Shown here: positions 21,267 to 49,024 of the stretch, piece by piece
Position numbering within the stretch: position 1 is the stretch's first letter
How the letters are laid out: each line of letters begins with the position of its first letter
Assembly (NCBI RefSeq): GCF_002210295.1
Contig: NZ_MWQH01000001.1
Location: 558,001 to 622,000 of the forward strand
Origin: Fibrobacter sp. UWB5
Lineage (GTDB): Bacteria; Fibrobacterota; Fibrobacteria; Fibrobacterales; Fibrobacteraceae
Direction: 5' to 3'
Length of the DNA stretch: 64,000 nucleotides
Made by a program: the position numbers and the translations under genes
The notes under the pieces: generated by a model
The model's database searches: none
Told to the model about the DNA's origin: nothing
What the model saw: the letters and a program-made list of their open reading frames with translations, nothing else

Positions 21267-21602
21267 ATGCTCACCGTCCTTAAATACATCGCCCTGGTCG
21301 GCACGTTCTTCATTTACACCACGTCGGGGGTGTTCTCGAAGCTTGCGTCGCAGCGGGAGTTCCTCTCGCCGGGGTACATCGCGTTCCTTGCATGCACGGT
21401 GGGCGTGTTGGGGATTTACGCTGTGCTGTGGCAGCAGATTATCAAGCGGATGGACGTGAGCCTGGCCTACATGTTCAAGGGCACGGGCGTGGTGTTCGGG
21501 CTAATGCTTGCGCACTATGTGTTTGGCGAGGCAATCACCACGACGAACATGGTCGGGGCGGCAATCATCATCTGCGGCATCACGCTGTATGCGAGGCCAT
21601 GA
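21267..21602 (+). CDS. Small four-helix DMT-superfamily transporter subunit 1
   Basis: 111 residues with four hydrophobic segments (about 3-20, 38-54, 64-84 and 91-109), the size of EmrE/ArnE-type proteins. Sequence features: ASQREFLSPGYIAFLA and RMDVSLAYMFKGTGVVF. Two adjacent small subunits, as here, resemble ArnE/ArnF, which flip undecaprenyl-phosphate sugars. A neighbouring GtrB/ArnC-like glycosyltransferase supports this role over drug efflux. Its stop overlaps the next start (ATGATG). Confidence 0.7.
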   Translation: MLTVLKYIALVGTFFIYTTSGVFSKLASQREFLSPGYIAFLACTVGVLGIYAVLWQQIIKRMDVSLAYMFKGTGVVFGLMLAHYVFGEAITTTNMVGAAIIICGITLYARP

Positions 21603-21937
21603 TGTTCTACGCTCTGGCACTATTCAACGTCTTTGTCGCGGCGGTGGCCCAGATGCTCCTGAAGAAGGCCGCTATCACACCGCACAAGTCATTTGTCAAG
21701 GAGTACCTGAACCCGTGGGTTATTGGCGGATACTCGCTGATGGTATTCTCGCTGGTATCGAACGTGTATGTGCTGAGCCAGGGCGTGCTGCTCAAGGAAC
21801 TCGGCACCATCGAGGCGGCCAGTTACCTGTTCGTGCCGGCACTCGCCTTTGTCTGCTTCAAGGAAAAAATCAACCTGCGAAAAGTCGCGGCAATCGCGCT
21901 TATCTTAGCGGGCGTTGTCGTGTTCTTTTGGGAGTGA
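21599..21937 (+). CDS. Small four-helix DMT-superfamily transporter subunit 2
   Basis: 112 residues with four hydrophobic segments. YALALFNVFVAAVAQMLLKKAA at the start and SYLFVPALAFVCFKEKINLRK near 80-100 are typical of SMR-like/EamA half-proteins. Coupled to the preceding gene by a four-base overlap (the next in-frame ATG at 21602 is also possible). Its end overlaps the convergent glycosyltransferase gene by 33 bases. A diverged copy of its 3' end lies at 20398-20473. Confidence 0.7.
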   Translation: MMFYALALFNVFVAAVAQMLLKKAAITPHKSFVKEYLNPWVIGGYSLMVFSLVSNVYVLSQGVLLKELGTIEAASYLFVPALAFVCFKEKINLRKVAAIALILAGVVVFFWE

Positions 21938-22861
21938 ACCCTTAATTTCCTTAATCACATATTGCGGGGAATCATTGATGCATATATAGATGCGGCCGAT
22001 GTATTCGCCGATAAGGCCGAGCATCATCAGGATAAGTCCGCCAATAATCAGAATCAGCGCGATGATGGTACTCCAGCCGTCTACCGTTGTGAGGCCGAGT
22101 AGCCTGCGAACAACCACAAGTATTGTAAAAGCAAAGCCCAGGAATGCAAAGAAAAATCCAAGGAACGTACTCAAGCGCAAAGGTTTCACCGAAAACGCCG
22201 TGAAGCCGTTCAGCCAGAGCCCAAGCAGACGTACAAACGAATAGCCCGATGTTCCTTGCAGGCGCGAGCGATGATTCGTTTCGACCCAGGCGATTTTGCG
22301 AGTGGTGCGTAGCACAAGGCCCAGCAGATACGGGAAGGCGTTCTTGTAATTGCACATTTCGCGAATCACGAACCCGCGTGCCACATAAAAACTGCTGCCC
22401 TTCATATCCTTAGGCGGATCCAGCATGAACTTGCCCATGAGCCCAGCCATCCACGAACCAAAACGGCGGAACAGGTTCTGCTTGATTTCGTGGTAGTAGG
22501 CATACACCACGTCGTAGCCTTCTTCAAGCTTTGCAATCAAATCGTTCAGCGAATCCAGCGGGGCCTGGCCATCGTCATCCAGCGAAACCACATATTCACC
22601 GGAACACTTGCCGTAACCCGCCAACAAAGCAGAATGCTGTCCGAAATTTTTAGCGAGGTTGATACCGATAACGTTGTTTTCCACTTCGGCAAGTTTCTCA
22701 ATAACATTCCACACGCCATCTGGACTGCAGTCATTCACCAGTACAATCTCGTAACTGTCACCCGGACGCTTGGCGGCCATTTCACTCTTGATTTCATCCA
22801 CCACCGTGATGATGGTATTTTCGGAGCGGTAACACGGAATCACAAATGAAAACTTAGGCAT
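21905..22861 (-). CDS. GtrB/ArnC-like polyprenyl-phosphate glycosyltransferase
   Basis: 318 residues. GT2 domain: FSFVIPCYRSENTI (4-17), VLVNDCSPDGVW (about 45-56), NFGQHSALLAGY (about 79-90), SLDDDGQAPLD (about 99-109) with the catalytic metal Asp residues, then two C-terminal membrane helices (about 232-255 and 268-292). This is the layout of enzymes that put a sugar on undecaprenyl phosphate at the inner face of the membrane (GtrB, ArnC, DPM synthase). The start ATG at 22861 has GGAGG upstream. Works most likely with the facing transporter pair and with the GT-C proteins at 35-40 kb. Confidence 0.88.
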   Translation of the reverse strand: MPKFSFVIPCYRSENTIITVVDEIKSEMAAKRPGDSYEIVLVNDCSPDGVWNVIEKLAEVENNVIGINLAKNFGQHSALLAGYGKCSGEYVVSLDDDGQAPLDSLNDLIAKLEEGYDVVYAYYHEIKQNLFRRFGSWMAGLMGKFMLDPPKDMKGSSFYVARGFVIREMCNYKNAFPYLLGLVLRTTRKIAWVETNHRSRLQGTSGYSFVRLLGLWLNGFTAFSVKPLRLSTFLGFFFAFLGFAFTILVVVRRLLGLTTVDGWSTIIALILIIGGLILMMLGLIGEYIGRIYICINDSPQYVIKEIKGSLPKEHDNAR

Positions 22862-23061: not shown

Positions 23062-24171
23062 TCATACTTTCCTGACATCATACTGCTTGTTCGTGCACTG
23101 GATTCCCCCGACCTTGTTGATAATTCCCACAACCTTGCCCTGCAACTTGTGGAACCCGATTCGCTTCTTGACGAATTCAATGCAGACAGACAGCAGTAAG
23201 GAGGTTGCGAACAACGCCAAAAAAATCAGTATCGGGTACTTGAACCCGTAAATAAAGTTGTGAAAAAAATACCCGTAGATAAAGGTGTGGGTGAGGTACA
23301 TGTTCATGGAATGCTTACCCACGTATTGCATGGCCACAAACCGCCGCCCCGTTACACGGCAAAGGCTCACTACGGCAAGCGCAACAAACACCGTGGCGAA
23401 GGGCTCGACGGCAAAGCCTGTAAATCCTGACAAAACGGGGAACCCGCGTAAGAAAAGCAAAACAGTGGCAGCGACAAGCGAAACACAGAGAACGATATAA
23501 GGGTGAACTATATTTAGAATCCTGTTGATCCGCGCTATATGCAAGGCGATAAAAATTCCGAGGGTGAATGGAAAGATGTAGGTGGATAGGCCAGGTGCTA
23601 TGTAATTCAATAGAAGCAATATATCGTTGGGGTTTGCGAACAAGAATACCAGCATGCAAATGCAGACAACCCTTCTTTTCATGGTCTGGTATAGAAATGG
23701 GAAAAGTAGCCAGAGTCCGAGTATTACCGCGTTGAACCACCATGTTATGTTGTACGAACAGAAACTTTGTTGCCCTAGCATGTCGCTCATGAATGACTTT
23801 ACTATATTGGAATTTTCGCCATAGGCGACTTCCAGTGAACGTCCGAAACAAAAAACACCCACAGAAACTGCGATAAAGAAGATGAACCAATAGTTCAGGA
23901 AGAACTTGGTGTATCGCTTGCACAAGATAAAAATGTGCGTTTTTGCGATATTTTGCTGAACTTTAGGGAATGATGCTGTCATGCCGTAACCAGAAAGGAA
24001 TACGAACAGCGTAACGCAAATCTTTCCAATCATCCCTATGTTAACCATAATCGCCCCAAAACTTGGCTGGTCGAAAAATAGGTGGTGAACAAGCATCGCC
24101 ATAATAGCAATGGCCTTGATTATCCACGTTTCATCGAGTGTAATGCGATAATCTGTTTTAGAGGTGTGCAT
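23062..24171 (-). CDS. Acyltransferase family 3 membrane protein (OafA-like)
   Basis: 369 residues, about ten membrane helices. The family's catalytic region is near the N-terminus: WIIKAIAIMAMLVHHLFFD with the His pair, then FVFLSGYGMTAS. These enzymes add acetyl or other acyl groups to surface sugars at the membrane. The start is uncertain: ATG at 24171 or a GTG at 24201; neither has a good ribosome site. Near the end, IGKHSMNMYLTHTFIYGYF is the usual conserved block. It follows the LuxE-LuxC gene on the same strand with a 167-base gap. Confidence 0.8.
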   Translation of the reverse strand: MHTSKTDYRITLDETWIIKAIAIMAMLVHHLFFDQPSFGAIMVNIGMIGKICVTLFVFLSGYGMTASFPKVQQNIAKTHIFILCKRYTKFFLNYWFIFFIAVSVGVFCFGRSLEVAYGENSNIVKSFMSDMLGQQSFCSYNITWWFNAVILGLWLLFPFLYQTMKRRVVCICMLVFLFANPNDILLLLNYIAPGLSTYIFPFTLGIFIALHIARINRILNIVHPYIVLCVSLVAATVLLFLRGFPVLSGFTGFAVEPFATVFVALAVVSLCRVTGRRFVAMQYVGKHSMNMYLTHTFIYGYFFHNFIYGFKYPILIFLALFATSLLLSVCIEFVKKRIGFHKLQGKVVGIINKVGGIQCTNKQYDVRKV

Positions 24172-24201
24172 AAAGAAGAGAAAGGATTTATCAAATGGCA
24201 C

Positions 24202-24345
24202 TTATTCACAATTTAATATATATCCAACATTCCGACCGCCTGGAGCACCTGAGAAATCTACGACGGAACCGTTCGTGCGGACCCGCAGGTATTCGGCGTT
24301 CACGTAGAGCACGGAGTACCGACCCAGAGACAAGTCCATTAACAA
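24202..24345 (-). pseudogene. Out-of-context coding remnant between LuxE-LuxC and acyltransferase genes
   Basis: An open frame ending at 24202 encodes LGRYSVLYVNAEYLRVRTNG and VVDFSGAPGGRNVGYILNCE before a stop. Codons are GC-richer than the AT-rich genes on both sides, and it has no start of its own apart from ones inside the LuxE-LuxC gene. It reads like the tail of a lost gene. I do not recognise the family. Confidence 0.3.
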
Positions 24346-26813
24346 AGCGGTCCGAATAATGTATTCCACCGAACAAGCCGATCTATTAAGAATATTCCGT
24401 CCCAAGGCATTTCGAAGTTAAGCATCCGACCAATCAATGGGCAACGTGCCACACCCTTTTGTGTAGCTTTATTCGCAAAATCTATCGCTTTTTCTTTGGG
24501 AGCAGCAATACCTATCGTCTGCACATAACTCTCTATGCAATCTAAGGCCTGATTGATATGTTCAACTTGATGCACCATCAGTGTTCTCGAGTATACAGGC
24601 TTGCATAGCAACGATTCAGCCGCATCATCCAAAAGGACACTCCAACTCATCGTGGCGCTACCCCAAACTTTCCCTTTAAAATCATATACACCACGAATTG
24701 AATGAATCGCAGCAATCTGTTCTGGAGATACGGTCGGTTTCGGAATTTGCACTTCCGTTTTTGGGAAAACGTCCGCAAGAATTTCACAGAATCTTTCAGG
24801 TGAGATGACTCCGCCTTTTTCGATATATAGATTATGCGGAGACGCACAACCCGCCTGATCAAAAACAGACACGTCTACTGTTACTCGCCGCGCAAGTTTC
24901 TTGGCTTCTTGTTCTGACGACAATTCTTCTTTTGCAATAACTGCATAAGACAACTTCGGACCAAAAACAACCGTTTCACAATCAATGGATGCAGGATACG
25001 CGGCAACAGTTTCTACTGCATCTTTTCCACCCCACGCAATGCGGACTTTGGCTTCCCTAGACATCATCTCGCCCAACTTCGTTGCATTACGGGAAAAATA
25101 AACTACACCTATAGTTTTCAACAAGTCGTCACCCTTGATACAAAAACCTTCTTTGGTTGTATATTCGAGGTTTTCAAAAGCCTTCATCAAGTTTGCAAAA
25201 ACGCCCGCATCTTTTGCCGCTACTTTTATCAAATTAGTGTTCTTTGTCAAAATGCTTTGGACCAAAGCAAACATTCCCAAAATTTGAACATTTCCCGCCA
25301 TCCAGTGACATACTAGACCACGAGCATTGGCTCTCATCAAATGCTTTTCACTATCAGCAAACGGTAAAAATTCATCCGCGTATCTGATATTGCCACGAAG
25401 TCCATCTTTAGCAATCTGCCGCAAATGCCGATCATCACACCATTGCGAAAGGAAAAGCAAGCCCTTATCTTTTAAAAAAATGTATTTGGGATCAGAAAGC
25501 CATCTTTTAGAAACTTCGCCAATTATTCCAATTAAAGCATCAATAGGCTGATTTCGAAGCCATTCATTCTGTTCATTAAGCCGTTCAATAATAGAAGCCA
25601 ATTGCTTCTCAGAATCGGTCTCATCCACAGGGACTTTAAAATATTGAACATCGAGCGTATTATCGTCTAATAATTTTTCCTTCTCTTTCGCATTAAATGT
25701 CAACTTAGCAGAAAGAATATCCCCACAACCACGTACTTCGGCTTTTTTTAATCGACCGTTCACCTTAAATCGAATCCCTGGACGACCATAGGGACAAGGT
25801 TCATCATAAACAACTCCCAAATCATCCGTCAAAACAGCGTTGCCCGGGTAACTATGGGGAATCGGAGTTATAAACTCCAACAAGCCTTCTTTGCCAGCAG
25901 GCAGAACATCTCTACTTACAATATCTCGTACAAGTACTTTAACATATGATGACGCGTGCTTACAACCGCATTTGCAATCAGGGTAATTCAGCCCCATTTG
26001 TTCAGTAAATCCGTAAATATCAATAACATCCGTAGATTCTATTCCGAAAGCATCTGCTATTTGCCGATTGAATTCTGGCTTTTCAACCTTCTCACTTTCT
26101 AATTTCTTCCACCCACCAATATGGATTACTTTAGACCCCTTGGGCAATACAATCTGCCCACAAGATGCCAGAATTGCTTTTAATACTTGGCTATATAGTA
26201 TATACGTAAACCCAAATACAACAACAGGCTTCTCAGACGGCAACTCCGCCAAGAAACTATTCATCGCATCGATATCAAAATACGATATGCCATCTTTCGC
26301 CTTTAAAAAAAATCCCGACTTGGACGCAAAATTTAAATATCCCGCTATAGCAGCAAAACGAGCCCCCAACAACGAGCGGAATTCCGATTTTGGATCAATA
26401 TCCATTACGAGAAACGGTTTACGGTCTTTGCCAATAAACTCCTGTACGACTTTAACCATGGCCTTTGCTTGGCGCCGGCTAGTAGTTTTATCCACAGCAA
26501 TTGTGCTTGGCGTCCCAGAAGTCGCAGAAGACTGAAGCCTTAGTTTTATCTCTTCTTTTGAAACAGAAGATAAATTGGTCCCCAATTCCTTAAATACACT
26601 AACGGAAACTGGGGGGATACATTCGACACCCGTCAGTTCTTCGTAAGGATTAAACTGCTTACGTTCACAAAACTGACGGTACATTGGATTATTTTCATAA
26701 TGAAAAATCAGTTCATCTTGCAAAGAACGAATAAATAGCGATTGCGCCACTTGCGAATCGTCGTAAACAGGTAAGTCAAAAAGTTGTTCTATATTTTTTT
26801 CTGAATTTTCCAT
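24339..26813 (-). CDS. LuxE-LuxC fusion: acyl-protein synthetase plus acyl-CoA/ACP reductase
   Basis: 824 residues, twice the size of either family. Residues 1-380 match the LuxE acyl-protein synthetase family: SSATSGTPSTIAVD near 91-104 and IDIYGFTEQMGLNYPDCKCGC near 265, the adenylate-forming core. Residues 400-824 match LuxC acyl reductase: ANARGLVCHWMAGNV (about 497), WGGKDAVETVA (about 595) and the catalytic Cys near 655 in FDQAGCASPHNLYIE. In luminous bacteria the two are separate subunits that turn an acyl group into an aldehyde. No luciferase genes are near, so light is not the product; the likely substrate is the acyl-ACP made by the neighbours. It starts four bases after the ligase gene stops. 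AT-rich. Confidence 0.85.
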   Translation of the reverse strand: MENSEKNIEQLFDLPVYDDSQVAQSLFIRSLQDELIFHYENNPMYRQFCERKQFNPYEELTGVECIPPVSVSVFKELGTNLSSVSKEEIKLRLQSSATSGTPSTIAVDKTTSRRQAKAMVKVVQEFIGKDRKPFLVMDIDPKSEFRSLLGARFAAIAGYLNFASKSGFFLKAKDGISYFDIDAMNSFLAELPSEKPVVVFGFTYILYSQVLKAILASCGQIVLPKGSKVIHIGGWKKLESEKVEKPEFNRQIADAFGIESTDVIDIYGFTEQMGLNYPDCKCGCKHASSYVKVLVRDIVSRDVLPAGKEGLLEFITPIPHSYPGNAVLTDDLGVVYDEPCPYGRPGIRFKVNGRLKKAEVRGCGDILSAKLTFNAKEKEKLLDDNTLDVQYFKVPVDETDSEKQLASIIERLNEQNEWLRNQPIDALIGIIGEVSKRWLSDPKYIFLKDKGLLFLSQWCDDRHLRQIAKDGLRGNIRYADEFLPFADSEKHLMRANARGLVCHWMAGNVQILGMFALVQSILTKNTNLIKVAAKDAGVFANLMKAFENLEYTTKEGFCIKGDDLLKTIGVVYFSRNATKLGEMMSREAKVRIAWGGKDAVETVAAYPASIDCETVVFGPKLSYAVIAKEELSSEQEAKKLARRVTVDVSVFDQAGCASPHNLYIEKGGVISPERFCEILADVFPKTEVQIPKPTVSPEQIAAIHSIRGVYDFKGKVWGSATMSWSVLLDDAAESLLCKPVYSRTLMVHQVEHINQALDCIESYVQTIGIAAPKEKAIDFANKATQKGVARCPLIGRMLNFEMPWDGIFLIDRLVRWNTLFGPLC

Positions 26814-26817
26814 TATT

Positions 26818-28269
26818 TTACGATTGTTTTAGTTTTATTCTTTGAATTTTTCCATTCAGCGTTCTCGGAATCTCTTTAATTCGTTCTATTTTCTCAGGCA
26901 TCTTGTAAGTTTCAAGTTTCGTTCTCAACGATTCTAGTATAAATTCGTCCGTTACGTTCTCATCCGCCACAACAAAAGCCTTAACAACCTCTCCCAAAAT
27001 TCCATTTTCATCAGGAATACCAACGCAAGCGCACTCTTTAACCCCAGGAATTGCGTTTATCATTTCCTCCACTTCCATGGGGCTCACTTTTTTCCCACCT
27101 ACGTTAATCATTTCCTTTATTCGGCTTTTTAAATAAATATACCCATTTTCATCCATCACCGCACAATCTCCCGTGCGAAAGTAATCTCCATAGAAATCCT
27201 TTTTAAATTCGTCGAGAGAAACATTCCAATAACCAGAGCAAACATGCTCACCTTTTACACAAATCTCTCCTTCTTCGCCCAAAGCAACTTTTTGACCACT
27301 TGTATTAAATAAGACTATATCAACCCCAGGAGAAGGCTTACCAATCGTACCTAAATTGTCCTTCTCCTGATGGAATTCCATAAAAGCACTTCTTGACGCT
27401 TCGGTAAGCCCATAATGCATATTCAATCGAGTATTAGGAAGCAGTTCCATTAAAAGTCGTTTTTCTTCTTGCTGCATAAAGGAACTACCAATTTCAATGT
27501 ACTTCAGTTGGTTTGCAAAATTGACAATATACTTGCCGCTAAATTTTTTCATATAAGCCCAACTTGCCGGGACCATACCGAAACCGGTAACATAATGTTC
27601 TTTTATTTCCTTAAAAAAACGTTTAATATTAGCAAAGGAACCTAGAACAACCAATGTTCCGCCAATAGACAAAACACAACGAATGCGTCCTAAGCCAAAG
27701 GAATGACTAACAGGAAGAGCCAACAACTCAACATCATCTTCAGTGTTGCCGATGAATGTATTGATTTGTGCTGCAGCCGCCGCCAGATTCTTATACGACA
27801 GCGTCACTCCCTTTGGATTTCCTGTCGTGCCCGTCGTAAAAAGAATGTCGGCAATATCATCTTGACTCGGCTCTAGATAGTCAAAAAAAGAATTGTCGTT
27901 TTCGGCAAATTTATCAAATGAAATTCCGCTTACACCAGCCTTATGAAGGCAACCTATTACACATTTAGGAGATGTCGTTTCTTTTATGTATTCGTAGCGA
28001 GTAAAATTCGTGTCAGGATCAATCGGGACAGCAATGCCACCAGCAATGTGCACACCGAAATATGCGTAGATAAATTCTACGTTCCCTGAAGCAGACAAAA
28101 TCACGCGGTCACCCTTACGAACTCCATATTCATTTCGCAAGCTATCCGCCGCGCAAAGAATACTCGACCAAAGTTGAGCGAAAGTCACCTCATGGTCATT
28201 TGCGATTAAGGCCGTTTTTTTAGGAGTACGGATTGTATGATTTCTTATCTGTTCTTCAATAGATTTCAT
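26818..28269 (-). CDS. AMP-dependent acyl/aryl ligase
   Basis: 483 residues, ANL superfamily. Motifs in order: A3 P-loop LFTTGTTGNPKG (about 143-154), LPVSHSFGLGR (about 184), MHYGLTEASRSAF (about 286-298), the YFRTGD motif (about 376) and the C-terminal lysine in RTLNGKIQRIKL (about 476). It activates a carboxylic acid as an AMP ester for transfer to CoA or, in view of the ACP gene whose stop overlaps its start (ATGA), to the carrier protein. The acid is unknown. Small-chain and aryl acid ligases of this length have a similar shape. Confidence 0.85.
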   Translation of the reverse strand: MKSIEEQIRNHTIRTPKKTALIANDHEVTFAQLWSSILCAADSLRNEYGVRKGDRVILSASGNVEFIYAYFGVHIAGGIAVPIDPDTNFTRYEYIKETTSPKCVIGCLHKAGVSGISFDKFAENDNSFFDYLEPSQDDIADILFTTGTTGNPKGVTLSYKNLAAAAAQINTFIGNTEDDVELLALPVSHSFGLGRIRCVLSIGGTLVVLGSFANIKRFFKEIKEHYVTGFGMVPASWAYMKKFSGKYIVNFANQLKYIEIGSSFMQQEEKRLLMELLPNTRLNMHYGLTEASRSAFMEFHQEKDNLGTIGKPSPGVDIVLFNTSGQKVALGEEGEICVKGEHVCSGYWNVSLDEFKKDFYGDYFRTGDCAVMDENGYIYLKSRIKEMINVGGKKVSPMEVEEMINAIPGVKECACVGIPDENGILGEVVKAFVVADENVTDEFILESLRTKLETYKMPEKIERIKEIPRTLNGKIQRIKLKQS

Positions 28270-28502
28270 CCCTGCAGTTTGCCTTCCGTAACCTTGATGA
28301 TGTCTCCAACATCTTCCATTTCCATCAACTCCTCTGGTTCAAAACTGACATTTAATTCACTTTCTATCTCTTGAAGAATGCGCAATTGAGCCATTGAGTC
28401 CCAACTCGGAAAGTCACCAACCGTTGATTGCTCCGAAATCTTTTCGATTTCTATCTCACAAACAGAAGCAATTATTTTTAGAACACTTTCTTTAACATTC
28501 AT
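28266..28502 (-). CDS. Acyl carrier protein 1 of the acyl cassette
   Basis: 78 residues, acidic, four-helix ACP pattern. The phosphopantetheine serine is in FPSWDSMAQLRIL (Ser near residue 34). The start at 28502 is the in-frame ATG that gives a normal ACP length; the ribosome site is weak (AAGGG). It overlaps the ligase start by four bases and follows the SDR gene by 16 bases. It presumably carries the acid activated by the neighbouring ligase. Confidence 0.88.
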   Translation of the reverse strand: MNVKESVLKIIASVCEIEIEKISEQSTVGDFPSWDSMAQLRILQEIESELNVSFEPEELMEMEDVGDIIKVTEGKLQG

Positions 28503-28518
28503 GATTGACCCTTTTGTT

Positions 28519-29265
28519 TTATTTAATTCCACCATCCACACGAATTATTTGACCATTCACAAAGGAACTTGAGGATGACGCTAAATAAATATAAGTATTT
28601 GCAATTTCTTCGGAATTGGCAAGGCGTCCCATCAAGGACTGTTGCTCCATTGATAATTTCGCCTTATCCCCCATTATATCAGCAAACTTGGTATCAGTAA
28701 GCCCTGGTGCAACTGCATTCACACGAATTTTTGAGGTCGCTAATTCTTTTGACAACACCTTTGTAAAAAGAATCATAGACGCTTTTGTAGCGCCATAAAC
28801 ACTATTGCCCATTTCTCCATCAATTCCCGCAATGGAGGCTGTATTAATAATAGAACTTTCACCATCTCTCGAAATAATTCCCAAAAGGCCCTGAGTAATT
28901 TGCAAATGCGCAAAATAATTCACCTGGAACACCTTTGAAACATCAGCCATTTTTGTAAAAGGCAAAATAGCGAGGTGAGGGATTCCAGCATTATTTATCA
29001 AAACATTTATTTTAACCTTCAATGACTTAATTTCGGTGATTCCATTTTTTATAGACTCACTATCAGACATGTCAAAATATATCGGGAAAACATTCACATC
29101 ATATTTTCGTTTTAAATCAGAGAAAAAAATCGCAGATTCGTCTTTGGGCGATCGACAACAAACAATTAGATTCGCGCCCTCGACAGCAAACTTTCGTGAA
29201 ATCGCTTTACCTATTCCACCATCAGCTCCAGTAATACAAACAACCTTATTTTCAAATTTCTTCAT
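28519..29265 (-). CDS. Short-chain dehydrogenase/reductase 1 (FabG-like)
   Basis: 248 residues. Classical SDR: nucleotide-binding TGADGGIGKA (12-21), NNAG (about 90), Ser in IINTASIAG (about 141), catalytic YGATK (about 155-159) and a glycine-rich end VNGQIIRVDGG. In this context the likely reaction is NADPH-dependent reduction of a 3-oxoacyl-ACP to the 3-hydroxyacyl form. The ATG at 29265 is one base after the stop of the KAS III gene. Confidence 0.88.
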   Translation of the reverse strand: MKKFENKVVCITGADGGIGKAISRKFAVEGANLIVCCRSPKDESAIFFSDLKRKYDVNVFPIYFDMSDSESIKNGITEIKSLKVKINVLINNAGIPHLAILPFTKMADVSKVFQVNYFAHLQITQGLLGIISRDGESSIINTASIAGIDGEMGNSVYGATKASMILFTKVLSKELATSKIRVNAVAPGLTDTKFADIMGDKAKLSMEQQSLMGRLANSEEIANTYIYLASSSSSFVNGQIIRVDGGIK

Positions 29266-29266
29266 A

Positions 29267-30331
29267 CTAATCAACCTCAATTAAAGGTAAAACATTCAAA
29301 TTTTCTGTTTCAATATATGCAGACGCCCATGACAATCCCGCTCCAAAACCGCATAAAATCATACGATTCGTTCCACACATGAGTTTTTCGCGAATTTGCG
29401 TTACCATTGTCATTGGAATCGTCGCACTACTGGTGTTACCAAATAATTCCAAACAAAAAGGCACTTTTTCTTTTTCCAACTTTAATTTCTGTCTAATTTT
29501 ATCATCAATAAATTTATTTGCCTGGTGAATTAACAGATAATCCATTTCATTATGTAAATCAATCCCGAAATTTTCACACAAATCTTCAATACACTTGGGA
29601 ATTTGAGATATTGTAAAAGAAAAAACCGTCATGCCGTCCATACGAACATGCGTTCGGTTCAAAATGATTCCATTCTTGACTTTCTTCATTTCCAAGGACG
29701 ATTCCGTCACTGGTTCTCGCACCCCAGATGCAGGAGCAATAATTGCGTCATACTGAGTTCCATCACTCATCAAATTGAACTTCATAGGCGTTGCATTTGG
29801 ATCATATTCCAACGCAGTAGCACTACCGGCATCTCCATGAATACTCCACATGGTTTTATCTAATGGAGAAAGAATCTTCGAGGGAGTATCACCAACAAGA
29901 AGTAGGGCTCTTTTCATACAGCCTAAAGAAAGCAATGAAGAAACTACAGACAATCCATAACAATATCCCGAACAAGCCATAGGAACATCAATCGTATAGC
30001 ATGTTTTAGGAAGTCCCATCTTTCCTTGAATTACAGTCGCCGTATTTGGTTCAATATAATCCCGAGAAACAGACACATAAATTAAACAATCAATACTCTC
30101 TTTCTTCCAGCCAATACATTCCATCAATCGTTCTGCAGCATTCATACAATAATCAGAACAGACTTTTGTAGCAGAAGCCATTCTACATTCCTTAACCCCT
30201 GTCAAAGCAATAGTCTTTTCCGCTTCAGACACTGATTCAAAACAGTCTAATGTTTTGATATCTTTTATCTGTTTAGGAACAGCACACGATAAGCCAACAA
30301 CACGAACGTTTGGAATTGTTAAGAACGCCAT
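29267..30331 (-). CDS. 3-oxoacyl-ACP synthase III-like protein 1
   Basis: 354 residues, thiolase fold. The Cys-His-Asn triad is present: VPMACSGYCYGL (Cys near 118), LLIHQANKFIDDKI (His near 270) and LFGNTSSATIP (Asn near 300). KAS III enzymes join an acyl-CoA starter to malonyl-ACP without a partner. It is related to the second KAS III in the cassette (both start MAF and share DGMTVFSF/DGASVFSF and the HQANKF block), so the two are old duplicates. Between the two SDR genes; 1-3 base spacings. Confidence 0.88.
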   Translation of the reverse strand: MAFLTIPNVRVVGLSCAVPKQIKDIKTLDCFESVSEAEKTIALTGVKECRMASATKVCSDYCMNAAERLMECIGWKKESIDCLIYVSVSRDYIEPNTATVIQGKMGLPKTCYTIDVPMACSGYCYGLSVVSSLLSLGCMKRALLLVGDTPSKILSPLDKTMWSIHGDAGSATALEYDPNATPMKFNLMSDGTQYDAIIAPASGVREPVTESSLEMKKVKNGIILNRTHVRMDGMTVFSFTISQIPKCIEDLCENFGIDLHNEMDYLLIHQANKFIDDKIRQKLKLEKEKVPFCLELFGNTSSATIPMTMVTQIREKLMCGTNRMILCGFGAGLSWASAYIETENLNVLPLIEVD

Positions 30332-30334
30332 AAA

Positions 30335-31078
30335 TCAAACCAAGTGAACACCACCGTCTATAATAATTTGCGTACCCGTAACCCACTTTGTCGCATCAGA
30401 AAGAAGGTATATAATAGCCCACGCGATTTCTTCAGGATTACCATATCGCTTAATCGGATAATGATTTTTATCTGCTTCCAATTCCTCTGAAGAGAACGAC
30501 AAATTCCGAGTCATTTCTGTATTAACCATTCCAGGCAAAACGCTATTAACTCTTATTCCTTTACAAGCAGTTTCTACCGCACAATACTCAGCAAAAGTTT
30601 TTATAGCAGACTTTGAAATTCCATACACAGAATTACCAGGAGCAAATGTTATTGCAGCAAGAGATGAAACCATAACTATAGAAGATTGATTTGACATCAG
30701 TTTCTTTTTTAAAATACTCTTGGTTAACATAATCGGGGCGAAAGTATTTATTTCTAAGACTTTTTCCACATCTTCTTTTTTCACAAACGGAATTGGTTTC
30801 GACATAACAATTCCAGCATCATTTACTAAGCCATCTAACTTTGGAAGCGAGTTCACCAAGCATTCAAGATCCGCAGGAAGAGTCAAATCAGCAACGATCA
30901 TTTTGTGCCCAACCCCTTCAAGCGAGTCTAAAGTGGACTTCAAACGTTCCTCATTGCGAGCAGTAAGAATCAAATTAGCACCAAGTTTAGAACACTCAAT
31001 AGCAGTTGCTCGTCCAATGCCCGAAGACGCGCCAGTTATCAAGATCGTTTTTCCATCCAAACTATACGGATTATACAT
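30335..31078 (-). CDS. Short-chain dehydrogenase/reductase 2 (FabG-like)
   Basis: 247 residues. TGASSGIGRATA (about 15-26), NDAG (about 92), SIVMVSSLA (Ser), YGISKSA (catalytic Tyr/Lys near 153) and TGTQIIIDGG. The start at 31078 is chosen because its ATG overlaps the stop of the KAS III gene (TAATG). NADPH-binding oxidoreductase; probably reduces the product of its KAS III neighbour. Classical SDRs can act on many substrates, so the assignment is from context. Confidence 0.87.
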   Translation of the reverse strand: MYNPYSLDGKTILITGASSGIGRATAIECSKLGANLILTARNEERLKSTLDSLEGVGHKMIVADLTLPADLECLVNSLPKLDGLVNDAGIVMSKPIPFVKKEDVEKVLEINTFAPIMLTKSILKKKLMSNQSSIVMVSSLAAITFAPGNSVYGISKSAIKTFAEYCAVETACKGIRVNSVLPGMVNTEMTRNLSFSSEELEADKNHYPIKRYGNPEEIAWAIIYLLSDATKWVTGTQIIIDGGVHLV

Positions 31079-32139
31079 TAGAAAACTACCACCTTTGGAC
31101 AAACTATTTTATCCGTAACAAAATGGAACGTACCCCAAGAAAGTCCTGTGCCAAAGCCACAACCAATTGTGTTCATAGACTTTGACGCATAATCATCACC
31201 ACATTCAGAAACAATTGTTAATGGAATAGACGCACTGGTTGTATTTCCATAATTTTTTAGACTAGAAGGAACTTGTTCCTTACTAGCCCCGATTTTCTTT
31301 GCAATTTTATCAAGCATAAATTTATTCGCCTGATGCAACAAAACTTTGTCAACAGAACTCATATCTATATTGAAGTGTCGGCAAAAATCTTTTATATTTT
31401 TGGGGACCGTAGATATTCCAAAAGAAAAAACACTCGCGCCATCCATACCCCCATTATCATTGTTGACCGGAACACTTCCTGACAACATTTCCAGTTCTCT
31501 TTTAAATGTTTCTTCTGTATAAGGAGTTCTACTTCGACCATATTTGCGTAACAAGGCGCTACCCTCCTTGCTAAGTGTTCCGACTTGAAATTCCATCGGA
31601 TTGACATTAGCATCGTATTCCAAAGCGGTGCATGTCCCACAATCCCCCAAAAGAGGTCTCGTTTCTCTATTCAACTTATAATTTATGGCAGAACAATTAT
31701 CCCCATCAAAAAAGACAGCCCTTTTTATACACCCTACACTAATCATTGATGCTATTGTAGATAATCCAACAACCCAGCCGGGGCAGCCATGGTTTATATC
31801 TAAGGCAAAACAATTCTCCGGTAGATTGAGTCTGTTGTGGATGACAAAAACATTGGGAGGCATTATATAATCCTCTGTCTGAGTTGCATAAAAAACAGCA
31901 TCAATCGAATCTAATTCCCAGCTGAGTTTTTCGTTCAAAGCATAAAAAGCCTTTTCACACAAATCTAGATTTGTAATACCGGGCTCAACGATATGTTTTC
32001 GTTCAATCCCTGTACGCTTTATGACCTGTTCGGCTTCTTCAGGCGAATAAAAGGGGATATCCCTATTTTCTTCGACCTTCGGAGGAACACAAGCGGAAAT
32101 GCCCCGAATGGCAACATTATTGACAGAAAAGAAAGCCAT
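31078..32139 (-). CDS. 3-oxoacyl-ACP synthase III-like protein 2
   Basis: 353 residues. Catalytic triad: DINHGCPGWVVGL (Cys near 117), KVLLHQANKFMLDK (His near 267), NYGNTTSASIP (Asn near 298). Resembles FabH/PqsD-type enzymes that take a CoA starter. Overlaps ACP 2 (TAATG) and SDR 2, implying that carrier, condensing enzyme and reductase are made in matched amounts. Confidence 0.88.
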   Translation of the reverse strand: MAFFSVNNVAIRGISACVPPKVEENRDIPFYSPEEAEQVIKRTGIERKHIVEPGITNLDLCEKAFYALNEKLSWELDSIDAVFYATQTEDYIMPPNVFVIHNRLNLPENCFALDINHGCPGWVVGLSTIASMISVGCIKRAVFFDGDNCSAINYKLNRETRPLLGDCGTCTALEYDANVNPMEFQVGTLSKEGSALLRKYGRSRTPYTEETFKRELEMLSGSVPVNNDNGGMDGASVFSFGISTVPKNIKDFCRHFNIDMSSVDKVLLHQANKFMLDKIAKKIGASKEQVPSSLKNYGNTTSASIPLTIVSECGDDYASKSMNTIGCGFGTGLSWGTFHFVTDKIVCPKVVVF

Positions 32140-32378
32140 TATCCTTTTTTACTTTTTACAATGTTAAATAAATCTTCTATAGTAATCGCAGAACGAAGGT
32201 CATTCCCTTTTATGGTCACATCATATTCTTCGTCAACCATAGCAATGAGAGACAAAGCAATCAAAGACGAATACTCGTCTAGTTCTTGGAATTTAGTAGA
32301 AGCAACAATCTGAGAAGCATCCGTTTCTTCAAACTGATCCACAACATGGGCAATAAATTCATTCAGGTCCATTTTCAT
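32139..32378 (-). CDS. Acyl carrier protein 2, variant DSL site
   Basis: 79 residues, acidic. It resembles an ACP type found in glycan clusters: FQELDEYSSLIALSLIAMVDEEYDV, where the usual Asp-Ser-Leu is replaced by Ser-Ser-Leu (modified Ser near 35). The start ATG overlaps the GNAT stop codon (ATGA). It probably serves the adjacent KAS III 2, while ACP 1 serves the ligase. Confidence 0.8.
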   Translation of the reverse strand: MKMDLNEFIAHVVDQFEETDASQIVASTKFQELDEYSSLIALSLIAMVDEEYDVTIKGNDLRSAITIEDLFNIVKSKKG

Positions 32379-32938
32379 CCTTTTGTTAACGTTAATTTTT
32401 TCTTGTACAATCTTTCTAACATTTGTCGAATCTTTCTTGATGAAGAGCTTTCCTCATTCAAATCATCTTCGAAGTAAAGAGCATTATGTCCACTCCGAAC
32501 TACTTTTTTTACAAATGTTGATTTTTTCTTAACATCGCTCAAGTGATGCACATTATTTTCATAAACAACAGAACAAATCCGGTTCAATTTAAGAACATCG
32601 CGGCAAAAATCAGCGACAAGCAAACTAACTTCCATGATTTCCGTGGGTTCGCCAACATTCACTTCACGACCAAGTTCAGCCATTCCATCGCGAATGTTAT
32701 AGGCCCCATACAAACCAATCCTTTCACCCTTTTTATTCAACACTACAAAATAGTAGTCGTTCGGTTCCTGCATCTGCCAGCGGATAAAATCCTTCTGGGC
32801 TTCGAGAGACTGAGCCAGTTGCCCTACGGTGTCGCGGTTCCGCTTGTCGGCACGGATATTATACGAAAACTCAGCATCATCAAGCGTGATGCTTCGTAAA
32901 TCGACAAACATTCCGTGTATCACTTCAGGGTAAACCAT
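32375..32938 (-). CDS. GNAT-family N-acyltransferase
   Basis: 187 residues, RimJ/RimL-like GNAT fold: VDLRSITLDDAEF near the start, YYFVVLNKKGERIGLYGAYNI (about 62-82), MEVSLLVADFCRDVLKLNRICSVVYENN (acyl-CoA region, about 102-130). First gene of the acyl cassette and 59 bases after the aminotransferase gene, so its acceptor is most likely the amino sugar made there, and its donor an acyl-CoA or the acyl-ACP from the cassette. In E. coli a GNAT (WecD) acetylates the same type of sugar. Confidence 0.75.
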   Translation of the reverse strand: MVYPEVIHGMFVDLRSITLDDAEFSYNIRADKRNRDTVGQLAQSLEAQKDFIRWQMQEPNDYYFVVLNKKGERIGLYGAYNIRDGMAELGREVNVGEPTEIMEVSLLVADFCRDVLKLNRICSVVYENNVHHLSDVKKKSTFVKKVVRSGHNALYFEDDLNEESSSSRKIRQMLERLYKKKLTLTKG

Positions 32939-32997: not shown

Positions 32998-34134
32998 TTA
33001 CACTCCAAAGAATTCAAACACCTTCCCGCAGATATACTCGATTTCTTCCGATTTCAACCCGTAGAACATGGGCAAACGAAGCAGACGGTTACTTTCGTTG
33101 GTGGTATACTTGTCATCTCCGTGGAATCTGCCGAATCGCATACCTGCGGGCGACGAATGCAGAGGCACATAGTGGAACACCGCGAGAATGCCGTTATACA
33201 CCAAATGCTTCAAGAGCGCCGTTCGCGTCGCAAGATCTTCCACCTTCAGGTAAAACATGTGTGCGTTGTGTTTGCAATGTTCCGGAATGTACGGCAACTC
33301 GACCAGGCCCTTTTCGGCAAGGGTCGCAAGCCTTTCACGATAGGCGTTCCAGCTCGCCATACGTGCATCATTGATGATGTCGGCACATTCCAGTTCAGCG
33401 TAAAGATAAGCCGCGTTCAGCTCGCTCGGCAAATAGCTAGAACCGAGTTCCACCCAAGTGTATTTATCGACTTCGCCACGGTGGAACTGACAGCGGTTCG
33501 TGCCTTTCTCGCGGATAATCTCTGCACGATCGTTGTACTTGGGGTCATTGATGAGCAACGCGCCACCTTCGCCCATGCTGTAGTTCTTGGTCTCATGATA
33601 GCTGTAACAACCAAAGTCACCAAGCGTTCCGAGTGCACGGCCCTTGTAGGTCGCCATCATGCCCTGTGCGGCATCTTCGACCACAAACAAATTATGGCGT
33701 TTCGCGATTTCGTTTATCTTGTCCATCTCGCAGGCGACCCCCGCATAGTGGACCGGCACAATCGCCTTCGTCTTTTTGGTAATGGCGTCTTCGATAAGCT
33801 TTTCGTCCAGATTCATCGTGTCGGGGCGAATGTCCACGAACACGCATTTAGCCCCCTGCGAAACAAACGCATCGGCCGTGCTCACGAAAGTAAACGAGGG
33901 CATAATCACCTCGTCGCCGGGAGCGACATTACAGAGACGGGCAGACATTTCGAGAGCGTGGGTGCAGCTAGTGGTCAGGAGCGCCTTCGCGGCCCCCGTA
34001 TGCTTTTCGAGCCATTCATGACAACGCAGGTTGAACGTTCCGTCACCACAAATACGACCGCTCTCCACGGCCTGCTTCACATAATCAAATTCCATCCCCA
34101 CAAAGGGAGGCTTGTTGAAAGGAATTTTGTTCAT
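32998..34134 (-). CDS. wecE: dTDP-4-amino-4,6-dideoxygalactose transaminase WecE
   Basis: 378 residues, DegT/DnrJ/EryC1 family and close to E. coli WecE (RffA) along its whole length: IPFNKPPFVGMEFDYV, SGRICGDGTFNLRCHEWLE, DEVIMPSFTFVSTADAFV, the PLP lysine in SYHETKNYSMGEGGAL (near 182), EKGTNRCQFHRGEVDKYTW and FHYVPLHSSPAG. It makes dTDP-Fuc4N from the 4-keto-6-deoxy sugar using glutamate. The gene is less AT-rich than the acyl cassette next to it. No rmlA/rmlB is in the window; these must be elsewhere. Confidence 0.93.
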   Translation of the reverse strand: MNKIPFNKPPFVGMEFDYVKQAVESGRICGDGTFNLRCHEWLEKHTGAAKALLTTSCTHALEMSARLCNVAPGDEVIMPSFTFVSTADAFVSQGAKCVFVDIRPDTMNLDEKLIEDAITKKTKAIVPVHYAGVACEMDKINEIAKRHNLFVVEDAAQGMMATYKGRALGTLGDFGCYSYHETKNYSMGEGGALLINDPKYNDRAEIIREKGTNRCQFHRGEVDKYTWVELGSSYLPSELNAAYLYAELECADIINDARMASWNAYRERLATLAEKGLVELPYIPEHCKHNAHMFYLKVEDLATRTALLKHLVYNGILAVFHYVPLHSSPAGMRFGRFHGDDKYTTNESNRLLRLPMFYGLKSEEIEYICGKVFEFFGV

Positions 34135-34195: not shown

Positions 34196-35374
34196 TCAGT
34201 TCAGTACCATATACGGCACCCAACGGCGATAAAATTTCGCCTGAAATTCAAGCGGCGAAAGAATTGGTTCGTGATCCCCCTGCACAATAAAGCGCACATC
34301 AGGGTGTTTTCTTGCTAAATCAGCAATAATCCGCAATGTTCCGAACAGGCGCTCATAATAGAGTTTTTCAGTTTTAATAGGATCATCGCTAATGGGGAAA
34401 CGGGTATCGCGGGTTGTCCAGGCGATAAAACGCTTTTGCGTAGTATCGGCAAGCAGGCTATCCATTTTTGCGACCATCATACTATCAGGCGAATCTTTAG
34501 ATGTAAACAAAGCTTCGGCAAATCCGATTTTGTGAACGTACTTATTACGGCGCTGAATCAGAGAATCGCCTCCGAATAAGAACGTATTCTTAAAGCCTAT
34601 TTTGGCTAAACGATTGGGTATAAACAAGGAATCTATTCTTTCCGTCGAATCTTTCCAAACCGAATCCAACAAGTCTTCACACTCTGCCGTACGTGTCCGT
34701 GAATACCTACGGAAATGAGCTCCGTAATTTGTAAGATTCTTGCTGAATATAGTCAACTCGCTATTAAGCCTATTTGTATCCATGGGGATTCCCCACGACT
34801 CCACAAGAACTACCACATTGCTGCGGGCGGTATCTATGTATTGGCGCGTAATCTTGACGGAATCAGTAACATTGTAGCGATCTTTAAAATTGCTTGGCAG
34901 TTGGTTGCGTGGCGGGGTATAGGGAGTAAGCCGAGATAACGTCCGCAACATAGGGAATTCAAACAAAGGCTGAGAAGGAACAATATTCAGGAAAAGAATG
35001 TGCACGGACAAACAAGAAAATAAAACTAGATTTATTGCCGACACATCTATTTTCTTAACAGGACGAGTAACAAGAAGGGCTATGGGTACAGTCACAAAAG
35101 GAAGAAAAAAATACCAAACAAAAGTCTCTTTTCGCACGTAAAGAAAATTAGACATATCAACAAAAGAACTCAGTAGAAGAGCAGCAACAATAATAAAGCG
35201 CCAAAGGATCGCTCGTCGATTCCTTACATACACATAAAGCAAAAGCAAGGCCAAGGCAAAAAAACTGAATATTCCATGGGGAATATAATAATACTCTTTC
35301 TCAAATGTCGCTAAATATGGTATAACGCTCACAAACGCAGATGCCGCAAAAATATAAAGCAAGCTTTTTATCAT
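34196..35374 (-). CDS. Membrane-anchored alkaline-phosphatase-superfamily protein B
   Basis: 392 residues. Five or so membrane helices (to about 140), then a periplasmic domain. Metal-site-like motifs: NVVVLVESWGIPMD (about 196), SRTRTAECEDLLDSVW (possible Thr nucleophile, about 235) and FIVQGDHEPILSP (about 370). This is the layout of LtaS/EptA-like phosphoglycerol or phosphoethanolamine transferases, but the motifs are divergent. Paralogue of the 37076 gene. It overlaps the GT-C-like gene before it by four bases, suggesting they act as a pair on lipid-linked or surface glycans. Confidence 0.7.
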   Translation of the reverse strand: MIKSLLYIFAASAFVSVIPYLATFEKEYYYIPHGIFSFFALALLLLYVYVRNRRAILWRFIIVAALLLSSFVDMSNFLYVRKETFVWYFFLPFVTVPIALLVTRPVKKIDVSAINLVLFSCLSVHILFLNIVPSQPLFEFPMLRTLSRLTPYTPPRNQLPSNFKDRYNVTDSVKITRQYIDTARSNVVVLVESWGIPMDTNRLNSELTIFSKNLTNYGAHFRRYSRTRTAECEDLLDSVWKDSTERIDSLFIPNRLAKIGFKNTFLFGGDSLIQRRNKYVHKIGFAEALFTSKDSPDSMMVAKMDSLLADTTQKRFIAWTTRDTRFPISDDPIKTEKLYYERLFGTLRIIADLARKHPDVRFIVQGDHEPILSPLEFQAKFYRRWVPYMVLN

Positions 35375-37059
35375 AGCGAATCCTTTACCAAAGAATACTT
35401 GTAAACACCAATACCATTAAAATCACGAACAATATCAACAATCACTGAATCATAGTAGTGATTCGTCAAAAAATTTGACAGTTCAGATTCTCCGACAACC
35501 AAGACATTATCATTGATTACATCCCTCAAAGGGTTTTCCATTCCCCGTTTACGGAATTCTCTTTCCATACTCGGAAAATACATAGTCCATCCCCCCTCCG
35601 GAACAAACCTATTTTGGCTACCAAACATTTCTGATAAATAAGGTGGAGTTTTATTAATTGACAAGCGCATACCTATGTCTGGAGAAACCATAAGTAGTGT
35701 TGAATCCGGTAAAGAATCAACGTACTTAAAGAATCCTGCATAATCCATTTTAGTTATTCTTTTTGAATAATAAAAAGCATGTACAGATTCTCTATCTGTA
35801 GCATAAATAAAAACATTCAAAATAGCCACCAAAGCAATAACAGCACTCGAAATGGTTCTAGAAAAATACAAATTAAATTTTTTATTTATATCTTCCACTG
35901 AAGGGAAACACGGAATTAGAGCTACAATTGCATAAAGCCACAAACCAGATTCAACGCGATAAATAAGTCGCGCAATGCTCAAGAAATACCCTATATAGCA
36001 AAGAATCAGAGCCAGTAAGCACCATACCACATATGATTTTTTGTTATTGGTAAGAATTAACAAAAAAGAAATCAACATCCAAAACCACACGATAGGTTCC
36101 TTTGCGCATCGAGGTAAAATATTTATCGTCGAATAAAAAAGTTCAACAGGGTCTTTTTTAACAATATGTGTTTTAAGGACACTATCGAAAACACTCAAAT
36201 TTCTCATGGAAAACACTTCATTATCATAAAACTTCCAATTTCGAATCATTTTAAAATCATCGCCCCAATTTCCCAATTCCTCTAAATCCTCATAAATTTT
36301 TTCGTCATCAGTCGCATGAAAATCATTTAAACGTACTCTCGCCTTTTGAAAATCAATATATGCCTGATATTCTGGAGAACCATACGCTAGCTGGTCTATT
36401 TTTTTTAGGCCAAATGTACAAGTAACAAGTAAAGACAAGAATACAATAAATATTTTTTTTCTGCACATGAATTTACAATTCACAGCCAAAAGTACTGCCA
36501 AAAAAGGCATGCCCATCAAAAAAGCATCATAACGCATTACAGAACCCCAAAGCATAAGAAACAAAGATAAAATAAGTACAATTATTCCATTCCGTCTTTC
36601 ATCCGGACCTACTGGCAACATTTCAAAAGCAAACAGAATTATTCCCGCTGCAGTCAGTGCCGATGCACATTGCGTAAATTGCAAAGCCAGATAAAAATCC
36701 GGAGCAAAAAAAGTTAAGAAAAGCATTGCCAAAATTAAGCCCAATCTTACACCTAGCAAACGAATAATAACGTAAGATATTGTGGTAAAAGACGCAAAAA
36801 CAGCAAAAGTTTCTCCTATATAATACCAGCCTATCTTTGGAAATAAGTAATATAAAGGAAGTAATACATAACCATACACAACATTAATAAATGTCATGTG
36901 AACATTATAATCATCTCCATAAACACCTTCAAGAATCCGAGACATGGCGTAATCATCTGAAATGCCAAACATAATCACGCCAAAGAAATGCGTAATAAAA
37001 ATGAAGAATACATTAATAATTACAGCAAGGAATAATGAATGTTTGCTAAATAAATACAT
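35371..37059 (-). CDS. Polytopic GT-C-like membrane protein B
   Basis: 562 residues with about ten membrane helices and a C-terminal soluble domain of about 130 residues. Near the N-terminus GISDDYAMSRILEG (about 32-45) places two Asp in the first outer loop, as in GT-C glycosyltransferases that use lipid-phosphate sugars. FINVVYGYVLLPLYYLFPK is shared with the 38315 protein. The exact family is not recognised. AT-rich, overlaps the phosphatase-superfamily gene (ATGA). Confidence 0.65.
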   Translation of the reverse strand: MYLFSKHSLFLAVIINVFFIFITHFFGVIMFGISDDYAMSRILEGVYGDDYNVHMTFINVVYGYVLLPLYYLFPKIGWYYIGETFAVFASFTTISYVIIRLLGVRLGLILAMLFLTFFAPDFYLALQFTQCASALTAAGIILFAFEMLPVGPDERRNGIIVLILSLFLMLWGSVMRYDAFLMGMPFLAVLLAVNCKFMCRKKIFIVFLSLLVTCTFGLKKIDQLAYGSPEYQAYIDFQKARVRLNDFHATDDEKIYEDLEELGNWGDDFKMIRNWKFYDNEVFSMRNLSVFDSVLKTHIVKKDPVELFYSTINILPRCAKEPIVWFWMLISFLLILTNNKKSYVVWCLLALILCYIGYFLSIARLIYRVESGLWLYAIVALIPCFPSVEDINKKFNLYFSRTISSAVIALVAILNVFIYATDRESVHAFYYSKRITKMDYAGFFKYVDSLPDSTLLMVSPDIGMRLSINKTPPYLSEMFGSQNRFVPEGGWTMYFPSMEREFRKRGMENPLRDVINDNVLVVGESELSNFLTNHYYDSVIVDIVRDFNGIGVYKYSLVKDSL

Positions 37060-37075
37060 ATTTCAACCCTCTATA

Positions 37076-38281: not shown

Positions 38282-38314
38282 TCAACACCATCGCCGGCAC
38301 ATCATACGGTTTAT

Positions 38315-46996: not shown

Positions 46997-47527
46997 GTGG
47001 CGCAGAACAAGAACCTCCTTATTCTAGGTGCTGGCCAGTATGGCGTCATGGCGAAGGAAATCGCCGAGGCCATGGGCGTTTTCGAGCGTATCGCTTTCCT
47101 CGACGACTCTTTCTTGGCTTGTCATCCTGAGCAAGCTACGCGCGTCGAAGGATCTATGGCAGACCTCCCGAAATTCGCCGTCGATTACCGCTACGGGTTC
47201 GTGGCTATCGGTAATCCGGAACTCCGCCGCAAGCTTACCGAACAGCTTTTACAAAACAACATGACCCCGGCAACACTCGTGCACCCCACGGCATACGTGA
47301 GCCCGAGTGCTAAGCTCGAACAGGGCTGCTGCATCGAGCCGAATGCCACCGTGCAAACCGGGGCGACTCTCGGAACGGCAACCTTCGTGGCGAGCGGAGC
47401 CGTTGTCCGCCATAACGCAACCGTTGGCGACTTCAGCCATATAGACTGCAACGCCGTTGTCCAAACGGGCGCTGTTGTCCCTGCGGCGACAAAGGTCGCC
47501 TGTAATTCTGTTTTTAACAAGGTCTAA
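46997..47527 (+). CDS. PglD/NeuD-family sugar O- or N-acetyltransferase
   Basis: 176 residues. N-terminal Rossmann-like part (LLILGAGQYGVMAKEIAEAMG, FLDDSF) and a C-terminal left-handed beta-helix made of hexapeptide repeats (TLVHPTAYVSPSAKLEQGCC, ATVQTGATLGTATFVASGAV). Such enzymes acetylate an amino sugar nucleotide. The start is a GTG at 46997 with GAGG upstream. Residues 41-54, LACHPEQATRVEGS, come from an in-frame palindromic element (47119-47158) and are foreign to the fold's usual sequence at this loop. First gene of the locus. Confidence 0.8.
   Translation: MAQNKNLLILGAGQYGVMAKEIAEAMGVFERIAFLDDSFLACHPEQATRVEGSMADLPKFAVDYRYGFVAIGNPELRRKLTEQLLQNNMTPATLVHPTAYVSPSAKLEQGCCIEPNATVQTGATLGTATFVASGAVVRHNATVGDFSHIDCNAVVQTGAVVPAATKVACNSVFNKV
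47119..47158 (+). repeat. In-frame dispersed repeat inside the PglD-like gene
   Basis: TTGTCATCCTGAGCAAGC... GCGTCGAAGGATC, of the GTCATCC-palindrome-GGATC type. It lies within the first, Rossmann-like half of the gene and does not break the frame. Confidence 0.6.
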
Positions 47528-49022: not shown

Positions 49023-49024
49023 AA

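Follow-up and report, generated by a model that had tools for sequence, protein, structure and literature searches.

A nine-gene cassette in Fibrobacter sp. UWB5 probably makes a hydroxyacyl group with which the amino sugar produced by the adjoining WecE-type aminotransferase is N-acylated. The cassette lies on the minus strand at 24339-32938 of a 64,000-nucleotide stretch of the genome (contig NZ_MWQH01000001.1, positions 558,001 to 622,000; hereafter the window), downstream of the aminotransferase gene. Its open reading frames (ORFs) encode, in order, a GNAT acyltransferase, an acyl carrier protein (ACP), a ketoacyl synthase III (KAS III), a short-chain dehydrogenase/reductase (SDR), a second KAS III, a second SDR, a second ACP, an AMP-dependent acyl ligase and a fusion of LuxE with LuxC (LuxEC). 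Its horizontal acquisition from gut Bacteroidales is well supported, and it occupies a slot at which Fibrobacter strains exchange acyl-making gene sets. Protein families, catalytic residues, gene linkage, the fold match of the GNAT, horizontal origin and the exchange slot were all computed, and are described before the pathway that they suggest.

Gene content of the cassette

The cassette and the aminotransferase gene comprise the following features:

24339..26813, minus strand: LuxE-LuxC fusion of 824 amino acids, acid-activating acyl-protein synthetase plus acyl-thioester reductase (PF04443 and PF05893)
26818..28269, minus strand: AMP-dependent acyl ligase (PF00501 and PF13193)
28266..28541, minus strand: ACP2, WDSM motif (PF00550); an internal ATG is the likely start, judging from the translation
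28519..29280, minus strand: SDRb, FabG-like, YGATK (Pfam, NCBIfam)
29267..30331, minus strand: KASIIIb, triad residues present (Pfam, NCBIfam)
30335..31102, minus strand: SDRa, FabG-like (Pfam, NCBIfam)
31078..32139, minus strand: KASIIIa, triad residues present (Pfam, NCBIfam)
32139..32378, minus strand: ACP1, YSSL motif (NCBIfam ACP models)
32375..32938, minus strand: GNAT acyltransferase, a mosaic among strains (PF13302)
32998..34134, minus strand: WecE-type dTDP-4-keto-6-deoxyhexose aminotransferase, producing dTDP-Fuc4N (NF008687 and TIGR02379)

Junctions within the cassette range from a 25-nucleotide overlap to a 4-nucleotide gap, and 59 nucleotides separate WecE from the GNAT gene; a scan for promoters and terminators gave counts not above those of shuffled sequence. 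A sequence-only reading of this DNA had described nine tightly packed genes of these families, forming a self-contained acyl-building cassette with a LuxE-LuxC fusion. Every ORF lies at the coordinates it gave and Pfam and NCBIfam confirm each family, and the description of the whole as a self-contained set is supported; that it serves as an acyl cassette for a sugar is well supported.

LuxE (E 4e-106) and LuxC (E 4e-75) domains, both above the Pfam cut-off, stand in one frame, which aligns with both chains of the LuxC-LuxE complex of the Lux fatty acid reductase (7xc6) and retains both acyl-cysteines (LuxE C363, LuxC C656). The Lux reductase, however, consists of separate proteins, acts on long-chain substrates and works with LuxD, and the fusion is only about 24-25% identical to the Photorhabdus-type pair. 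It misses the NCBIfam equivalog cut-offs for LuxC and LuxE of bioluminescence (98 of 750 and 86 of 550 bits) and the cassette contains neither luciferase nor LuxD, so a role in bioluminescence was rejected.

Elsewhere in the cassette Pfam returned AMP-binding, PP-binding (ACP2), two SDR, two ACP_syn_III and Acetyltransf_3 matches. The Cys-His-Asn triad is intact in both KAS III proteins, YxxxK is kept in both SDRs, and the ligase retains its motifs. ACP1 gives a weak Pfam match (E 0.003) but does match NCBIfam ACP models; it is 55% identical to a phosphopantetheine protein of Parabacteroides distasonis and reads YSSL where DSL is usual, the Parabacteroides homologue having EEYSSI. SDRa is 58% identical to an SDR from a capsule cluster of the same species.

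The GNAT acyltransferase, its proposed sugar substrate and export

The aminotransferase, which the earlier reading had identified as an adjacent WecE, exceeds both curated NCBIfam cut-offs for the transaminase that forms dTDP-4-amino-4,6-dideoxygalactose, or dTDP-Fuc4N (NF008687 and TIGR02379; 628.7 bits over 375 and 623.5 over 434.9), and a dTDP-glucose dehydratase is encoded in the same genome. The AlphaFold2 model of the GNAT (mean confidence score, pLDDT, 76) has FdhC as its best match in the PDB (Z 17.6, root-mean-square deviation 4.5 over 177 residues, 16% identity), and PseH matches at Z 14.4. FdhC, whose fold the model shares, places 3-hydroxybutanoyl on a dTDP-amino sugar, and the matched structure holds bound 3-hydroxybutanoylamino-3,6-dideoxygalactose; it acts on a 3-amino sugar, whereas the target proposed here is a 4-amino group. 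The suggestion that the GNAT is an acyl transferase to a dTDP-amino sugar thus gains from the modelled fold, and also from gene order, since of three other strains two keep the GNAT gene next to WecE although the acyl genes change.

Putative genes for later steps, and other neighbours, are as follows:

21267..21602, plus strand: small EamA-type half-transporter, putatively ArnE/ArnF-like (PF00892, above cut-off)
21599..21937 (start approximate; ORF 21392-21937), plus strand: second small EamA-type half-transporter (PF00892 weak, E 0.004, below cut-off)
21905..22861, minus strand: ArnC-like GT2 glycosyltransferase, with ATG 22861 as its start
23062..24201, minus strand: membrane O-acyltransferase (Acyl_transf_3), inside the exchanged segment
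22862..32690: exchangeable segment of the Fibrobacter slot, its left edge within the GNAT gene, at about 32520-32740
34196..39994, minus strand: two pairs in tandem, each made up of one polytopic membrane protein and one sulfatase-like protein (from motifs only)

The best PDB matches of the GT2 protein are ArnC structures (E 1e-41); it falls short of the curated ArnC equivalog cut-off (NF007986, 166.9 of 529 bits) and is therefore called ArnC-like only. It would load a 4-(N-acyl)amino sugar onto undecaprenyl phosphate, and the two EamA-type genes, which resemble ArnE/ArnF, converge on its gene. The FdhC match, the WecE cut-offs, the dTDP-glucose dehydratase, the ArnC-like GT2 and the EamA pair together make an N-acylated Fuc4N on undecaprenyl phosphate the best reading of the likely product.

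Upstream of WecE and in the same direction, each pair at 34196-39994 combines a polytopic membrane protein of 559-562 amino acids with a protein of 392-401 amino acids bearing sulfatase-like motifs (NVVVLVESWG, FGGDS, GDHEP). These proteins have no match in Pfam, NCBIfam or the PDB; the membrane protein was detected in its own genus only, in 27 of 81 genomes searched, and the AlphaFold2 model of the copy at 35371-37059 (pLDDT 42) is too poor for use. The pairs may be involved in a later sugar transfer step.

Exchange of acyl genes and horizontal origin

Two Fibrobacter strains (G025 and G018) carry WecE (92-96% identical), the GNAT gene and the ArnC-like GT2 gene (85-91%) in the same order as the window, yet despite these matching flanks each of the three has its own set of acyl genes between GNAT and GT2: ACP1-KAS-SDRa-KAS in G025, and ACP1-KAS-SDRa-ligase-ACP-KAS with two other genes in G018. 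A third strain (G002), known from a short contig, has GNAT-ACP1-SDRa-ACP-KAS-ligase, the small ACP being assigned by position and size, with a different gene at the WecE position. Against G025 and G018, nucleotide identity drops at two points, one within the GNAT gene and the other at the start codon of GT2, which we corrected to ATG 22861 because this boundary is conserved among strains. Across the genus, WecE is 78-97% identical in many members and the GNAT is found in four of 80.

The GNAT is itself a mosaic, with residues 1-82 being 95-96% identical among strains and residues 83-187 only 47-54%. In the AlphaFold2 model the fourth strand and the third helix fall in the variable half; in the GNAT fold this region holds the acyl donor, and the donor half may be exchanged together with the carrier. 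A Bacteroidales origin for the C-terminal half was tested and not seen, the two halves being 35% and 25% identical to the proteins of two related loci (L047/L049). The slot shows how a gut bacterium may swap the acyl groups of its surface.

The genome has 24 copies of TIGR02147, a family that takes its name from Fibrobacter succinogenes, which points to a Fibrobacter host. Among 168 genomes of the phylum the LuxE-LuxC fusion occurs in this one alone, a single relative having a distant, separate LuxE. G+C content runs at about 37-44% in the cassette, while much of the first 18 kb of the window has about 50-57%; put as single values, the contrast is between about 39% and about 53% further away. 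In a maximum-likelihood tree of 29 rows the fusion nests with Bacteroides luti and metagenome-assembled genomes (MAGs) of gut Bacteroidales (support 100/97; identity up to 72%). Searches of E. coli genomes found no match and a phage search returned one weak LuxE-like match only, while the genus Vibrio has the fusion in four of 228 genomes, including V. fortis and Vibrio sp. 99-8-1.

Related loci and modular organisation

One genome scan yielded 80 related loci, 28 of which, from Bacteroidota, Bacillota, Pseudomonadota, Nitrospirota and Verrucomicrobiota, have LuxE-LuxC as a single frame. A Parabacteroides MAG (L049) holds the complete order, with a DegT aminotransferase followed by GNAT, ACP1, KAS, SDRa, KAS, SDRb, ACP2, ligase and LuxEC. 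The earlier reading would have fallen had the nine genes not occurred together elsewhere; the order recurs, and chance grouping was rejected.

Fused loci are of three types. The first is ligase-[Fe-ADH]-LuxEC, where Fe-ADH is an iron-containing alcohol dehydrogenase (for example Vibrio fortis L066, Lachnospiraceae and Cerasicoccus); the second is SDRb-transketolase halves-ACP2-ligase-LuxEC; and the third is KASb-SDRb-ACP2-ligase-LuxEC, with neither Fe-ADH nor transketolase, which includes the window, L049, L052, L056 and L065. KASIIIb is 66-71% identical in those four loci. SDRb occurs where the Fe-ADH of other fused loci is absent; its substrate may be either the aldehyde formed by LuxEC or a 3-oxo group.

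The ligase is the next gene after 38 of the 50 WDS-type ACPs found in related loci. ACP1 adjoins an acyltransferase gene in most related loci, and a GNAT- or PglD-type gene lies directly before it in six of ten ACP1-like matches. We describe two modules: a starter, in which ACP2-ligase-LuxEC is accompanied by Fe-ADH, SDR or transketolase, and an extension module made up of ACP1-KAS-SDR-acyltransferase. This modular scheme joins the tetronate genes of V. cholerae O1, the lux-like genes of flagellin islands and the acyl sets with two KAS genes, and gives predictions for other loci. Plasmid searches added unfused versions in polysaccharide clusters (such as that of Deinococcus sp. NW-56) and a relative set free of LuxEC in Parabacteroides distasonis.

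In the LuxEC sets of L046, L047, L050, L057 and L064, split transketolase genes lie either immediately ahead of SDRb or between it and ACP2, and transketolase genes in sets of this type have been reported for Dickeya too; their position suggests that the transketolase halves add a two-carbon unit to the aldehyde.

Comparison with described systems

In Vibrio cholerae O1 the tetronate genes VC0248-VC0252 include RfbL, an Fe-ADH, RfbN, a single protein annotated as acyl protein synthase/acyl-CoA reductase, and an acetyltransferase, and their product acylates perosamine (PMC3441752, PMC9201469). A ligase, a single LuxE/LuxC-type protein (RfbN being likened to the fusion by annotation, not by sequence) and an acyltransferase for a 4-amino-4,6-dideoxy sugar are common to this set and the window, which has the adjacent ACP, acyl ligase and LuxE-LuxC protein of an RfbKLMN-type set. 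By Pfam, however, the window has no Fe-ADH between ligase and LuxEC, having SDRb instead, and in all it has two KAS III, two SDRs and one ACP more than the tetronate set. Relatives of the window fusion do show the tetronate-type order ACP-ligase-Fe-ADH-LuxEC.

The Flavobacterium psychrophilum genes wfpC-wfpG, in an O-polysaccharide cluster, encode an ACP, two ketoacyl synthases, a reductase and an acyltransferase, and place 3,5-dihydroxyhexanoyl on Qui2NAc4N. The cassette has all of these beside an amino-sugar aminotransferase gene, but in F. psychrophilum the acyltransferase is PglD-type, the sugar is of the UDP-bacillosamine type, and AMP ligase, second ACP and LuxEC are not reported. Flagellin glycosylation islands of Aeromonas group II, Enterobacteriaceae and Dickeya share ACP, SDR, AMP ligase, LuxE and LuxC with the window; their luxE and luxC are separate, however, and KAS III is not reported. 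Two capsule clusters of Parabacteroides distasonis (L012/L013) have an acetyltransferase, two ACPs, SDR(s), ligase and KAS III as in the window, but lack LuxEC.

In gene content the cassette is the sum of a tetronate-type and a two-KAS set, an SDR standing where the former has Fe-ADH. The statement of the sequence-only reading that no such system had been described holds for the joining of both modules in one cassette, which is new, but not for the parts, for which V. cholerae O1, flagellin islands and F. psychrophilum offer known parallels (PMC3441752, PMC9201469, PMC6519341, PMC7874193). Also new are the exchange slot for acyl genes in Fibrobacter and fused LuxEC loci in which an SDR (or transketolase) takes the place of the Fe-ADH present in others.

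The flagellin of Aeromonas piscicola AH-3, whose island has ACP-SDR-ligase-LuxE-LuxC, carries a 102 Da glycan moiety (PMC7874193). The computed mass of a dihydroxybutyryl residue is 102.03, which leads us to suggest this identity, although other formulas of the same mass are possible.

A proposed pathway and its alternatives

The chemical steps, their order, the acyl structure and the final acceptor are inferred from gene content. LuxE-LuxC would first activate a carboxyl group and reduce it to an aldehyde, which SDRb, replacing the tetronate Fe-ADH, would convert to an alcohol; this step as written is somewhat doubtful. The AMP ligase would load the resulting acid on ACP2, and KAS III with SDRa would add one or two two-carbon units on ACP1, with 3-keto reduction. 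The GNAT would then take the chain off ACP1 and attach it to the 4-amino group of dTDP-Fuc4N, after which the ArnC-like enzyme would put the N-acyl sugar on undecaprenyl phosphate, the EamA pair would flip it, and a periplasmic enzyme would transfer it to a glycan or protein at the surface. More tentatively still, LuxE-LuxC may make a starter with a terminal hydroxyl that the KAS III enzymes extend into an undescribed polyhydroxylated N-acyl group, strains swapping whole sets by recombination within the GNAT gene and so renewing its donor half with the carrier.

Several points weigh against the proposed pathway. FdhC resembles the GNAT at the level of fold (16% identity) and was solved with coenzyme A, not ACP; the Ser of ACP1 is not preceded by the usual Asp; and the sequence cannot assign steps to either KAS III or either SDR. 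The change from Fe-ADH to SDRb looks like a single event on the tree, and because it probably is one, it is weak functional evidence. LuxEC could also have a different substrate, or could act as the final step.

The last possibility can be stated more fully: the KAS/SDR 3-hydroxyacyl chain would be released and reduced by LuxE-LuxC to an aldehyde or alcohol used as such (in an ether, N-alkyl group or lipid), while the GNAT transfers a simpler acyl group. Finished fatty acids are what LuxE and LuxC reduce in bioluminescence, LuxEC is the final gene of the cassette, and in several Bacteroidales a gene of metallo-beta-lactamase fold follows it. We consider this unlikely, since the cassette has no LuxD-type thioesterase, the ACP-ligase-LuxEC core of Vibrio, Lachnospiraceae and others has no KAS III with it, and such a set yields a short N-acyl group, tetronate, in V. 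cholerae O1.

LuxEC might instead be a passenger, the acyl group being a KAS/SDR product such as 3,5-dihydroxyhexanoyl built from acetyl-CoA, as in F. psychrophilum. The match to wfpC-G in content, and the sister strain G025, whose set has neither ligase nor LuxEC, speak for this, but ligase and LuxEC are intact in the window and stay linked in almost all of the related loci, and hence appear to be in use; we give the passenger role a similarly low probability. Transfer to a lipid, secondary metabolite or protein rather than the WecE sugar is less probable again: transketolase-LuxEC sets do occur in varied loci, and the two upstream membrane protein pairs match no family, but WecE, GNAT and the ArnC-like gene flank different acyl genes in other strains and the fold match of the GNAT is a nucleotide-sugar acyltransferase. 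The preferred reading thus remains N-acylation of dTDP-Fuc4N by a hydroxyacyl group made in the cassette.

Other features of the region

A second, AT-rich surface polysaccharide cluster lies at 47527-58345 of the window and encodes a sugar transferase, an epimerase, glycosyltransferases, MBOAT and EpsG proteins and a flippase. A gene for a transposase of the PD-(D/E)XK nuclease family lies near the operon (window 41016-41990). Further KAS III-like genes form a tandem pair just outside the window (G000:C1:544161-546139).

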